From Bdellovibrionales bacterium (GTDB lineage: Bacteria > Bdellovibrionota_C > UBA2361 > SZUA-149 > JAGRAN01), in the NCBI GenBank assembly GCA_020434585.1, contig JAGRAN010000017.1, positions 1-34,811 of the forward strand: a DNA stretch of 34,811 nucleotides. The letters run 5' to 3'. The translations under genes were made by a program, and so were the position numbers. The notes under the pieces were generated by a model. The model searched no databases. It saw only the letters and a list, made by a program, of their open reading frames with translations, and had not been told where the DNA came from. Positions 28,285 through 34,715 of this stretch are shown piece after piece (within the stretch, counting starts at the first letter, position 1; the number at the start of each line of letters is the position of its first letter).

Positions 28285-29106
28285 ATGGCAGAATCTTCCC
28301 TCGTCTCGGGTTTCTTTAAAGTTCCGGCGGTTGCCCGTCTGACAAAGCTTCCACGAGGTCGCGTTCTAGGTTTATCTGTCGGGGCATCTTGCTTCGTTAT
28401 CGCCTTTCTTACTCTGGTTCTTCCGAAAGACAGCCAGATGGCGGTGTTTCTGCTCGACTACACAAAATTTTCTTCATTCCCTTATCCGTTTACCATTCAG
28501 AACTTGATGTATCTCTTATTCGCAGTTTGTATCGGCGAATTATTTATTCGTTCGTGGGCTGCTAAGCAGGAACTGAAGTTTCTGGGCCAACACTTTCTGC
28601 CAGAAGATGATCACTCCGTACTGCGGGCGAAAGACCTCGGTGAAATACGTCAGAGAGTGGCGCATCAGTTTACCGCTGATACGGGAATTCTGCCGTACTT
28701 AATTAATCTTTGTATTCTTCAGTTTCAAGCCAGCCGTTCGGTCGATCAAGCTGTGAGCGTAATGAACAGCAGTCTCGACTTAATAAGCCACAAAGTAGAT
28801 TTGAACTACTCGTTGACGCGCTACATCGTCTGGGCGATTCCGACTGTCGGGTTTATCGGAACAGTTGTCGGAATTGCTAACGCGTTGGGTTTTGTTAACC
28901 CCGATCATATGGATCTTGGTCAGGTGACGGGGAGTTTGAGCGTTGCCTTCAACACTACAATTATTGCCCTGGTGTTAAGCGCAATTCTTGTTTTGTTGCA
29001 GCACATCGTGCAGACCAGTGAAGAATTGGCGATGAACCGGGCAGGCGACTATTGCCTAAGAAATCTAATTAACCGTTTGTACGTCGAAAAGCAGGCGGCG
29101 GCCTAA
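28285..29106 (+). CDS. MotA/TolQ/ExbB-like channel subunit
   Basis: This 273-residue protein has four membrane segments (about 28-46, 71-90, 180-201, 217-240) around a helical cytoplasmic part. The MotA/TolQ/ExbB core is clear: YIVWAIPTVGFIGTVVGI (180-197) for the third segment, and SVAFNTTIIALVLSAILVL (219-237), with the polar Asn-Thr-Thr that lines the channel in the fourth. The family forms a ring of five around two partner helices and turns ion flow into force. The extra N-terminal 60 residues and an additional hairpin recall TolQ and ZorA. GAGGAG lies 9 nt upstream of the ATG. It is the first of a four-gene unit. Confidence 0.8.
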   Translation: MAESSLVSGFFKVPAVARLTKLPRGRVLGLSVGASCFVIAFLTLVLPKDSQMAVFLLDYTKFSSFPYPFTIQNLMYLLFAVCIGELFIRSWAAKQELKFLGQHFLPEDDHSVLRAKDLGEIRQRVAHQFTADTGILPYLINLCILQFQASRSVDQAVSVMNSSLDLISHKVDLNYSLTRYIVWAIPTVGFIGTVVGIANALGFVNPDHMDLGQVTGSLSVAFNTTIIALVLSAILVLLQHIVQTSEELAMNRAGDYCLRNLINRLYVEKQAAA

Positions 29107-29127
29107 ACAAACTCGGTTTGCTAATTT

Positions 29128-30165
29128 ATGCAGCGGCGCAACAGAGACATAAATATCTTCAGTCTATCGATGATGGATGTTATTTCCGGCGCGATGGGTG
29201 CTTTCCTGATTATTATGATTGTTCTCGCGCGCTACTACGAAGGTAATCCTGAAAACTCTGAGAGCGTAGACAAGCTGCAGCGTGAGCTTAAGAAAGCAAA
29301 AGAAAAAATCGAACAAGTCGAGAAGATGTTTCGCCAGAACGGTCGTGATATCGACGTCGACCGAATTCTGCGAGAGCTTGAAGAGGCGAGGCGCGCCATC
29401 GATGACGCTAATCGACGAATGGCAGATTTGCGTGATCGCCTTGATCAAGCAACTGCGATGAAGAATCGTCTCCAGAAGGATAACGACAAGCTGACGGAAC
29501 GCAACAACCGTCTAGAATGGCGTCTGCCGTTTATGGTAGATGCGTGGTTTGATGATTGCCGTGATGTCGACGTGAACCTGTATATATATACGAATGTTCA
29601 GGGGTCAGAAGGCAAGGTTCAACCTTACTTTGATCCAAACATCAAACAGACGACATTCTGGACTGGAGACCATTATATCGATGATCCCCTAGCGCCGGGT
29701 GCGGATATTTGGATGGTGCGCGATGTCCCGGGAGGCAACGATTACAAGCTTTACTACTATATTCCAGGCGCAAAGGCAGATGCCAAGGATTGCAAAGTCG
29801 GCGGCGGAATTTTTGGTTCAAAAATCAAAAATGATTCGCTTCCGTACATCACACTTAGCGGCAAGAAGCCTTGGGAGCTCGTTGGCTTTCTCCACTATCC
29901 TGAAGAGGGCGACTTCAATGTAGTCTTTACGGAAGCGACGGAAGAGCAGCGCGCTCAGGAGCGCGAGTTGGTAGCGGCAGCTCTTGTTAAGAAGAAGGAG
30001 GCCGAGGCCAGAAGAGCCAAGGAGAAGAAGGAAGGGAAGCCGGAAGACAATAGGCGGGTAGAGGAAAAGAAGACACCGGACGTAAAGCCTAATCCAGGAA
30101 ATCCTGTATCGATGGTTCCTGAACCGAAGCCGAATAAGAAGAGTTGGTGGAATCCATGGCGATGA
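29128..30165 (+). CDS. MotB/TolR-position partner with coiled coil and novel extracytoplasmic domain
   Basis: This 345-residue protein starts with a short basic tail and one membrane segment (17-35) reading SMMDVISGAMGAFLIIMIVL. Asp17 sits where MotB, TolR and ExbD keep the proton- or sodium-binding acid. A long coiled coil follows (about 45-131), then a compact domain rich in Tyr, Trp and Asp (about 135-270). A Lys/Glu/Arg/Ala helix (272-315) and a Pro-rich tail ending SWWNPWR come last. No OmpA/peptidoglycan-binding motif is seen, unlike MotB or ZorB. The gene starts 21 nt after the MotA-like gene and ends in an ATGA overlap with the next. Related FSLS-D membrane starts occur in uncharacterised proteins of several phyla. 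Confidence 0.7.
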   Translation: MQRRNRDINIFSLSMMDVISGAMGAFLIIMIVLARYYEGNPENSESVDKLQRELKKAKEKIEQVEKMFRQNGRDIDVDRILRELEEARRAIDDANRRMADLRDRLDQATAMKNRLQKDNDKLTERNNRLEWRLPFMVDAWFDDCRDVDVNLYIYTNVQGSEGKVQPYFDPNIKQTTFWTGDHYIDDPLAPGADIWMVRDVPGGNDYKLYYYIPGAKADAKDCKVGGGIFGSKIKNDSLPYITLSGKKPWELVGFLHYPEEGDFNVVFTEATEEQRAQERELVAAALVKKKEAEARRAKEKKEGKPEDNRRVEEKKTPDVKPNPGNPVSMVPEPKPNKKSWWNPWR

Positions 30166-30833
30166 CAAACGAAGCCTCAATGAAAATGCATCGCTGCGTC
30201 TGCGGCGAGGTTTATGATTTGCTCAAGCACAAAAAGTGCCCTGAGTGTGGGGCCGCAAAGGATTCCGGCTCGCCGGCGGCTGCACCGGAGCAGCAGTCAA
30301 CCCAGTCAGATTCCACGCTGCCCGTATCTGCCCAAGAGCGAGACTGGAAAAAAATCTGCATCGGGATTGGTGTCGCGTTAGTTCTGTACTTAATGCTTCG
30401 AGGCGGTTCCAGCAATTCTTCGAGCACCAACAAGTCCATTCACGGCGATGAAACACCTGTTGCAAACTTAGACATGTCCGACTCACCGCTCGGTAAACTT
30501 GGCGCACAGGCTTACAGCGGAGTGGATTACTCCGTCACTGACGGCGTTGTGGACCCCAAGTTAGTTGGAACATGGATTCAAACTGTTAAGACGATGAATG
30601 GCGACGAGTCTTGGCAGATCGAAATTGACTCAGACGGCAGCTATGCTTTTAAAACCTCAGGCACAATGGTGTCTGTTCAGCACAACGGTGAGTTTTCAGC
30701 TGAGAACGGCAAGTGGAAGCTTAGTTCGAGTAACACTGGCTGGAAGGACGGCGGAAGCTATTCAGTCCCGCGTCCCGACCTTTTTGTGATGATGGGAGCT
30801 CTCGGCACTGGCCAGTGGAGGAAGGCCGAGTGA
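30162..30833 (+). CDS. Zinc-ribbon, single-TM protein with extracytoplasmic beta domain (paralogue 1)
   Basis: This 223-residue protein begins with a zinc ribbon: Cys12, Cys14, Cys26, Cys29 (CxC-x11-CxxC, within HRCVCGEVYD and KCPECGAA). A low-complexity linker, one membrane segment (about 65-80) and a C-terminal domain (from about 130) follow. The last domain has GTW, a Tyr-x-Phe strand, NGKW and WKDGGSYSV, like small lipocalin-type folds. The ATG forms ATGA with the upstream stop; another ATG two codons earlier is possible. I know no named family. It shares its order of domains and the same key residues with the next gene, so both come from one duplication. Confidence 0.7.
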   Translation: MTNEASMKMHRCVCGEVYDLLKHKKCPECGAAKDSGSPAAAPEQQSTQSDSTLPVSAQERDWKKICIGIGVALVLYLMLRGGSSNSSSTNKSIHGDETPVANLDMSDSPLGKLGAQAYSGVDYSVTDGVVDPKLVGTWIQTVKTMNGDESWQIEIDSDGSYAFKTSGTMVSVQHNGEFSAENGKWKLSSSNTGWKDGGSYSVPRPDLFVMMGALGTGQWRKAE

Positions 30834-31702
30834 GTCCTAGTAAGCGCGGCATGCCTTATGGCGAGCCGCTTGATAGCGCCATTGAAACTAGTCGGCTTGT
30901 GCGCTGCTCATGTGCGGAAATTTATGACAGTCTGCATACTCCCAAGTGTCCCGCTTGCGGCGCGGTGCCTCCTACGCAGCCCTCCCTAGTTTCAGACGAT
31001 TCTCCCAGCGTGCCTACGGTGACTCAGGGAAGCAAGGCAGCTCTGCCGCCGGAGACCCCGGAATGGATCTGGAAAGCTGGCGCGGCGGCGGCAGCGCTGT
31101 TGATGTTAGTTATGGTGGTGAAGGACATACGAGCGTGCAATCCGCCTGTTGCGATGCACGAAACTGCGCAGCTCCCGGAGACAAAGTCAGCGAAGGGGCA
31201 GGAAGCCCAGCCCAAGCAGCAAGACGCTTTGCTGCCAGCGGTAGATCCAAAACCAATTCCCAACAAACTTCCGATGCGTATTCTCGATATTCAGATTATC
31301 GGAGAATGGGAGGCGCAGATTTCCACAAAGGAGGGGCTGCAACCTGCAAAGCTGAGTGTCAAGCACGACCAGCACTACTCGTTCGTTCTGCAGAGCCCGA
31401 CGCACTCCTGGACACATTCGGGAACAATTTACACCAGCAACGGTAAATATTTTATGGAAGAGCAGCAACCGCATGGCGGTCGGGGCGGAAATATGTGGAA
31501 AGATTCCGGCCCTTACACTATTCACAACATCAACTCGTTCTCTACCAACGGTTCCTTAAAGGTAACGTGGAACAGGGTGAACACTCAGCCGGCTCCACGC
31601 GCACAGAAGCAGTCCAAGAAAGGCTGGCCGTTAAAGAAGCTATGGGGAGGAGGGGATGACTACTGGAACAGTTCTGGAAGCAGCCGCGGCGTTCGGCGCT
31701 AG
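30830..31702 (+). CDS. Zinc-ribbon, single-TM protein with extracytoplasmic beta domain (paralogue 2)
   Basis: This 290-residue protein has the same plan as the preceding one: a zinc ribbon at Cys26, Cys28, Cys40, Cys43 with the same CxC-x11-CxxC spacing, a membrane segment (about 82-98), a Pro/Gln linker and a C-terminal domain. That domain has GEW, Tyr-x-Phe, NGKY and WKDSGPYTI at matching places. A basic, Trp-containing tail is added. The GTG start overlaps the preceding stop (GTGA), with GGAGGAAGG just upstream. It closes the four-gene unit; 123 nt separate it from the next gene. Function unknown. Confidence 0.7.
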   Translation: MSPSKRGMPYGEPLDSAIETSRLVRCSCAEIYDSLHTPKCPACGAVPPTQPSLVSDDSPSVPTVTQGSKAALPPETPEWIWKAGAAAAALLMLVMVVKDIRACNPPVAMHETAQLPETKSAKGQEAQPKQQDALLPAVDPKPIPNKLPMRILDIQIIGEWEAQISTKEGLQPAKLSVKHDQHYSFVLQSPTHSWTHSGTIYTSNGKYFMEEQQPHGGRGGNMWKDSGPYTIHNINSFSTNGSLKVTWNRVNTQPAPRAQKQSKKGWPLKKLWGGGDDYWNSSGSSRGVRR

Positions 31703-33785: not shown

Positions 33786-34715
33786 GTGAAGAATAATCGA
33801 CCAAATAACCTTGCGATCATCGACTGTGGGACCAACTCGGTTCGCTTTTACGTATTTGATATCGACAAGAACGGAAAGTTTGTTCCACGCTGCAAAGAAA
33901 AGATAATGATTCGTCTGGGTGACGGGCTGTTTGACGACAACAAGCTCACTCCCGAAGCCAAACAGCGAGGAGTCGCCGCATTTAAATACTTTCAAGTATT
34001 GATTTCTCAATTTAAACCCGAGACGGTTCGAGCAATTGCTACGAGCGCTTTGCGAGAGGCGAACGACTCGGCTGAATTTGTGGATGAGGTTAGGCGTGAA
34101 ACCGGCATCGAGATCGATGTGATTTCCGAAGAAGAGGAAGCGAGACTAATCGCAGTCGGAGTTACCTCAGGAGTGTACGAAGTCCACGGTGAGCCGCTGG
34201 TCTTGGTGGATATCGGCGGAGGTTCTACGGAAATCAGTCTTTGCCACGGAGCGGACATCGAGTTCTCTGCAAGTCTGCGTTTTGGAGCAGCGCGCTCTCA
34301 GCAAAACTATTTAAAGAACTCTCCACCAAAAAACGGGTCTCAACTTAAGCTGCGCCAAGCGCTAAACGATAAGCTCAAAGAATTTTCACCAAGGTTTCCG
34401 TTTGCATCGGCCCAAAGGCTAATTGGATCCAGCGGTTCGATTCGGGCACTTGGAAAGGTTTGCACCCATACAGCAGGTGAGAACGGCCCGTTTGACCGCG
34501 GCGATCTAGAGGCGTTTATTAAACGAATAGAGGTCTTAGACAAATCTCAGCTGGCGTTGATTCCCGAGCTGGAACCGCGGCGGGTGGACTTAATCCTTGC
34601 AGCGGCGGTAATCTTGGACGAAATCGCTGCCTACTTCGGCGCAGCAGAAATAATTCCTACCTCACGCTCACTTGTGGACGGAATCCTCCACGATTCATTC
34701 CTGCTCTCCGCCTAA
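33786..34715 (+). CDS. Ppx/GppA-family exopolyphosphatase / pppGpp phosphatase
   Basis: This 309-residue protein has the actin-like ATPase fold marks of Ppx/GppA: IIDCGTNSVRFYVFDI at the start, the P-loop-like ATSALREA, SEEEEARL, and the phosphate-binding VDIGGGSTEIS. These enzymes split phosphate from polyphosphate chains or pppGpp. At 309 residues it is the short form without a C-terminal HD domain, as in many Ppx1/Ppx2-type proteins. The start is GTG, without a clear SD. Substrate choice between polyphosphate and pppGpp cannot be told by eye. No polyphosphate kinase is in the window. Confidence 0.9.
   Translation: MKNNRPNNLAIIDCGTNSVRFYVFDIDKNGKFVPRCKEKIMIRLGDGLFDDNKLTPEAKQRGVAAFKYFQVLISQFKPETVRAIATSALREANDSAEFVDEVRRETGIEIDVISEEEEARLIAVGVTSGVYEVHGEPLVLVDIGGGSTEISLCHGADIEFSASLRFGAARSQQNYLKNSPPKNGSQLKLRQALNDKLKEFSPRFPFASAQRLIGSSGSIRALGKVCTHTAGENGPFDRGDLEAFIKRIEVLDKSQLALIPELEPRRVDLILAAAVILDEIAAYFGAAEIIPTSRSLVDGILHDSFLLSA

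Follow-up and report, generated by a model that had tools for sequence, protein, structure and literature searches.

Flagella, gliding, type IX secretion, Zorya, and the Ton and Tol systems are driven by motors of the 5:2 type; for gliding and type IX secretion, the motor is GldLM. In the TPH-vWA motors, a TolQ-like subunit occurs without TolR or ExbD, and the Asp is borne by the transpore helix of its partner (PMC12204202, section 8, Mol Biol Evol 2025). This class is the nearest published relative of the motor described here. The window, i.e., the whole stretch of 34,811 nucleotides analysed here (genome G000), contains the following genes and feature.

A, 28285..29106, forward strand: TolQ/ExbB/MotA-superfamily pentamer-type subunit, 273 aa (by Pfam, AF2 model and invariant Thr residues)
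B, 29128..30165, forward strand: axle-type partner, 345 aa (by AF2 model, hhalign and Asp17 conservation)
Transmembrane (TM) stretch of B with Asp17, 29170..29226, forward strand: hydropathy peak at residues 15-33, Asp17 codon at 29176-29178
C, 30162..30833, forward strand: protein with zinc ribbon, TM and extracytoplasmic lipocalin-like domain, 223 aa (by sequence, motif, homology and a weak Pfam match)
D, 30830..31702, forward strand: paralogue of C with zinc ribbon, TM and extracytoplasmic domain, 290 aa (by sequence and domain homology to C)

The genes A and B are separated by 21 bp, and B/C and C/D overlap by ATGA and GTGA, respectively. Hence, the original prediction was correct in describing the last three of the four genes as joined. 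The sister species G001 has all four genes in the same order and chromosomal setting. Between the window and G001, dN is 0.09, 0.19, 0.27, and 0.42 for A, B, C, and D, while dS is above 3 or saturated. As dN is low against saturated dS, the four genes are real and selected, and by this comparison all are under purifying selection. Scans for promoters and terminators gave sites no more numerous than in shuffled sequence. An exopolyphosphatase-like gene lies 3' of the operon and is followed by a polyphosphate-kinase-like gene (window 33786-34715 and L056:5236-7404). Both are named from sequence only, and their order is kept in G001.

By Pfam and by predicted fold, A belongs to the MotA/TolQ/ExbB superfamily. 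MotA_ExbB (PF01618) is the only Pfam model that A matches above the curated cutoff (E 2.3e-12, 47.2 bits; cutoff 22.9). Comparison of the A profile with solved structures gave TolQ (E 1.5e-4), PomA, MotA, and ExbB. In Foldseek, the AF2 model of A (pLDDT 82) matches the TolQ, ExbB, MotA, and ZorA folds with a probability of 0.98-1.00, which is 1.00 for TolQ and ExbB. T193, T224, and T225 are invariant in the 10 aligned members and, read as a motif, likely correspond to the ring threonines of ExbB/TolQ. Elsewhere in its genome, G000 has five further MotA_ExbB matches.

B has a single TM helix, which bears Asp17 in the motif MMDVISGAMGAFLIIMIVL; we take this motif to resemble the Asp motif of MotB. 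The AF2 model of B (pLDDT 68, moderate confidence) consists of the TM helix (residues ~8-37), a coiled coil (~44-131), a beta-rich periplasmic domain that is beta-sandwich-like in the model (~132-270), and a charged tail. The Pfam matches of B are mostly coiled-coil, and a Foldseek search of the model against the PDB gave nothing significant. A likeness to DUF2135/YfaP is not backed by any Pfam match. The beta domains of B from the window and from the FHA-type loci described below form one family (hhalign probability 97.3, E 2.2e-11); real sequences scored 17-33 bits, and shuffled ones at most 10.2 bits in 10,000 shuffles. In B of G1007 (L124:1-423) and G1083 (L126:928-1551), a short Cys/Pro-rich linker replaces the coiled coil before the beta domain.

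The motif C-x-C-x(11)-C-x-x-C-G is present in both C and D, as are a single TM and an extracytoplasmic domain that is homologous between the two. The zinc ribbon and the TM are found at residues 12-30 and ~65-83 in C and at residues 26-44 and ~79-103 in D. The homology of the two extracytoplasmic domains amounts to 29-35 bits, against 10.8 bits for the best of 8000 shuffles, and by sequence C and D are paralogues. The original prediction of a four-gene stator-like operon is thus borne out at these positions by Pfam, fold, sequence, and the sister species, with a MotA/TolQ/ExbB-like subunit, a partner with the expected membrane Asp, a coiled coil leading to a periplasmic domain without PDB match, and two paralogous zinc-ribbon/TM/extracytoplasmic proteins. 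C also matches Pfam Lipocalin_4 weakly (E 0.039). Its domain weakly resembles the C-terminal domain of a kinase encoded beside A in G013 and G038 (14 bits; at most 10.8 in 8000 shuffles), which suggests a weak link between the two domains. A PADLOC search gave no match for C and D.

The known users of this motor core had been predicted to have partners that are absent here. Indeed, no OmpA, TonB, TolA, or ZorC/D/E-type gene lies beside the window operon, and the features tested set it apart from Mot, Tol-Pal, Ton, and Zorya. With TolQR-TolA and ExbBD-TonB, A has its fold in common and B the Asp-bearing helix. Unlike these systems, B has a long coiled coil and a different periplasmic domain, A scores 16.5 against a cutoff of 221 for the NCBIfam TolQ equivalog, and TolB and Pal genes are also missing beside the operon. 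With flagellar MotAB/PomAB, A has the superfamily fold in common, but it falls far below the cutoff of the NCBIfam MotA equivalog, B has no OmpA-like match in Pfam, and no flagellar genes lie beside the operon. ZorAB belongs to the same superfamily, and accessory proteins are swappable in both systems. However, A lacks the long cytoplasmic tail of ZorA, and B lacks the OmpA-like peptidoglycan domain of ZorB.

Like the TPH-vWA motors, the window combines a TolQ-like subunit without TolR or ExbD with an Asp-helix partner. The TPH-vWA partner contains VWA, whereas B has the coiled coil and beta domain and no VWA match in Pfam. TPH-vWA motors neighbour PEGA/FGE-sulfatase genes, whereas the family described here neighbours FHA/kinase/PP2C or zinc-ribbon genes. 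In the A tree, a sister clade is made up of loci whose partner bears VWA; because of its locus anatomy, we take this clade to be the TPH-vWA class. The loci of this clade (L047, L048, L049, L050, L057, L058) encode TolQ-like subunits and Asp-helix VWA partners. Several of them hold PEGA/FGE-sulfatase, TPR-like, and lipoprotein-like genes, and their partner genes go beyond those in section 8 of PMC12204202. In the open-access literature, preprints excluded, we found no paper on the A-B family or one that links MotA/TolQ/ExbB proteins with FHA, PP2C, or kinases. The family is apparently undescribed; a sister TolQ-like class was noted in 2025.

By scanning contigs and searching plasmids and genomes, we collected 17 genomes or records that have the A family. 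These are G000 (the window), G001, G013, G038, G297, G355, G1007, G1083, a Halioglobus MAG, a Desulfovibrio MAG, two Methyloceanibacter, three more genomes of the Methyloceanibacter family, one MAG titled Hyphomicrobiaceae, and a Rhizobium leguminosarum plasmid. B directly follows A in 17/17 members. Of the 13 loci with a readable gene after B, 12 (the window and 11 of 12 others) have a zinc-ribbon gene next to A-B or one gene away. The zinc-ribbon gene follows B immediately in ten loci and one gene later in G355; in the Hyphomicrobiaceae MAG, where A is split over two contigs, it is upstream of A. The Rhizobium locus has no zinc-ribbon gene at A-B, and the other four members, in which the contig or stretch ends after B, are outside this count.

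The domain fused to the ribbon varies. It is a TM and beta domain in the window and G001 (in Halioglobus, a TM protein), a TM with TPR or Sel1 repeats in Hyphomicrobiaceae and Methyloceanibacter, and FHA in the Desulfovibrio MAG, G355, G297, and G1083. The zinc ribbon would be a swappable adaptor in the wider family. FHA, kinase, PP2C, or VWA genes flank A-B in seven relatives (G013, G038, G297, G355, the Desulfovibrio MAG, G1083, and the Rhizobium plasmid). In G013, G038, G355, G297, G1083, and Rhizobium, the gene immediately before A encodes an FHA protein, which in most cases carries a zinc ribbon at its C-terminus. The FHA-type loci also contain differing combinations of genes for Ser/Thr kinase, PP2C, VWA-FHA, or trypsin-like proteins. 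The Rhizobium cluster encodes two kinases, PP2C, FHA, VWA-FHA, and a 1610-aa glycine-rich protein.

Beside the window operon, there is no kinase, phosphatase, FHA, PP2C, or VWA gene, and the nearest kinase, a TPR kinase, is ~15 kb away on the opposite strand. Across the G000 genome, there are 13 kinase and 11 FHA matches. We looked there for a dedicated kinase or FHA-zinc-ribbon partner, and none of the FHA stretches read had the operon-type C-terminal zinc ribbon. Given the varied ribbon fusions and the kinase/PP2C/VWA-FHA genes of the FHA-type loci, the window operon looks like a pared-down form of a motor that is linked with Ser/Thr-phosphorylation signalling. The original prediction was right about the fold, the coiled coil and its domain, and the missing known partners, and the co-occurrence that it proposed as a check holds for A, B, and zinc-ribbon genes in unrelated genomes. 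It missed the kinase/FHA/PP2C/VWA tie, the swappable ribbon, and the sister class. Because relatives in unrelated bacteria adjoin Ser/Thr-kinase signalling genes, the operon seems to be a genuine and rare envelope machine that is apparently undescribed.

Starting from the superfamily homology, the conserved gene neighbourhood, and the common B and zinc-ribbon domains, we infer its function, i.e., stoichiometry, ion flow, force output, docking, and phospho-control, as follows. Five A subunits probably surround two B helices, and Asp17 of B would carry the ion. By homology, ion flow between A and this Asp would rotate or displace A relative to B, and the coiled coil would relay the movement to the beta domain of B in the periplasm. 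As the zinc-ribbon proteins recur beside A-B with different fused domains, they are the best coupling candidates. C and D would be adaptors: in the cytoplasm, their ribbon would dock on the motor or on regulators of it, and their extracytoplasmic domain would sense the envelope side or put load on it. From gene linkage, Ser/Thr phosphorylation (FHA, kinase, PP2C, VWA) probably switches the motor on or off. The window operon would have kept motor and adaptors and would either have lost the linked kinase/FHA part or use kinases encoded elsewhere. Taken as a whole, this account of an ion-driven A-B motor with C/D adaptors, in a family built around Ser/Thr phosphorylation, is fairly probable. That the family is a rotary envelope motor class under eukaryote-like Ser/Thr phosphorylation, in which zinc-ribbon adaptors with swappable domains connect the ring with periplasmic sensors or with FHA/kinase signalling, is a tentative reading.

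The A family spans several phyla and is rare. It was found in 4/46 genomes of the window's phylum, in 3/297 of the phylum of the Desulfovibrio MAG, in 1/399 of the phylum sample around Methyloceanibacter (that Methyloceanibacter genome itself), and in 1/~337 of one further sample outside the window's phylum. After G001, the window's closest row in the A tree is that of Halioglobus rather than of a member of the window's order; other loci of the same order group with the Desulfovibrio MAG and G355, though several of the branches that place these loci are weakly supported. The position near Halioglobus suggests that the unit travels as a cassette. The Rhizobium relative lies on pRlBT01d (NZ_CP125637.1, L118), a 1.33 Mb plasmid typed as conjugative. 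The very patchy distribution, a tree at odds with taxonomy, and a plasmid-borne copy would also suit an anti-phage or other conflict system similar to Zorya, in which the motor detects damage to the envelope and sets off swappable accessory proteins. The accessory domains are indeed swappable, A weakly matches ZorA2 in PADLOC (E 2.9e-5), kinase/PP2C/vWA/zinc-ribbon themes are known in conflict systems (PMC7159879), and phage defence by a kinase-kinase-phosphatase module has been described (PMC11341870). However, no nuclease or helicase domain was matched in the operon proteins scanned, the differences from Zorya given above apply, and the operon has the same chromosomal setting in both species of the window's genus. 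We regard a conflict system as unlikely.

Even less probable is a motor that, like GldLM, powers the secretion or movement of surface proteins, with the VWA, trypsin-like, and glycine-rich partners as cargo. The VWA-FHA, trypsin-like, and large glycine-rich proteins of several relatives and the long coiled-coil axle of B would fit, but the operons as read have no conserved outer-membrane pore or adhesin, and the window operon encodes no extracytoplasmic protein other than B, C, and D. A non-motor role, as a mechanosensing scaffold or gated channel that reports the envelope state to cytoplasmic signalling proteins, is very doubtful. It would fit the five Hyphomicrobiaceae genomes that keep A, a B in which Asp17 is replaced by Ala, and, where readable, a zinc-ribbon gene, but Asp17 is kept in 12/17 members across phyla and the three threonines of A in 10/10 aligned members.

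These five members (B at L011:8808-10772, L012:4422-6356, L051:9597-10577, L163:3-1067, and L164:8064-9446) are the main ground for caution about the ion-driven motor that we prefer: not every member need be a motor, and ion-driven movement need not be universal among them. Their B has an Asp five residues upstream of the Ala and a Lys nearby (FDISLMAVVTKAMGAF). In G1111 (L162), which is of the same bacterial family, the B Asp is kept.

The A-B family offers a small gene set for testing the wiring of motors to phosphorylation, and relatives are carried by the named strains Rhizobium leguminosarum BT01 and Methyloceanibacter methanicus R-67174. One more motor branch that has a periplasmic head of its own and recurs with kinase/phosphatase/FHA genes would show that 5:2 motors can be wired to phosphorylation signalling.
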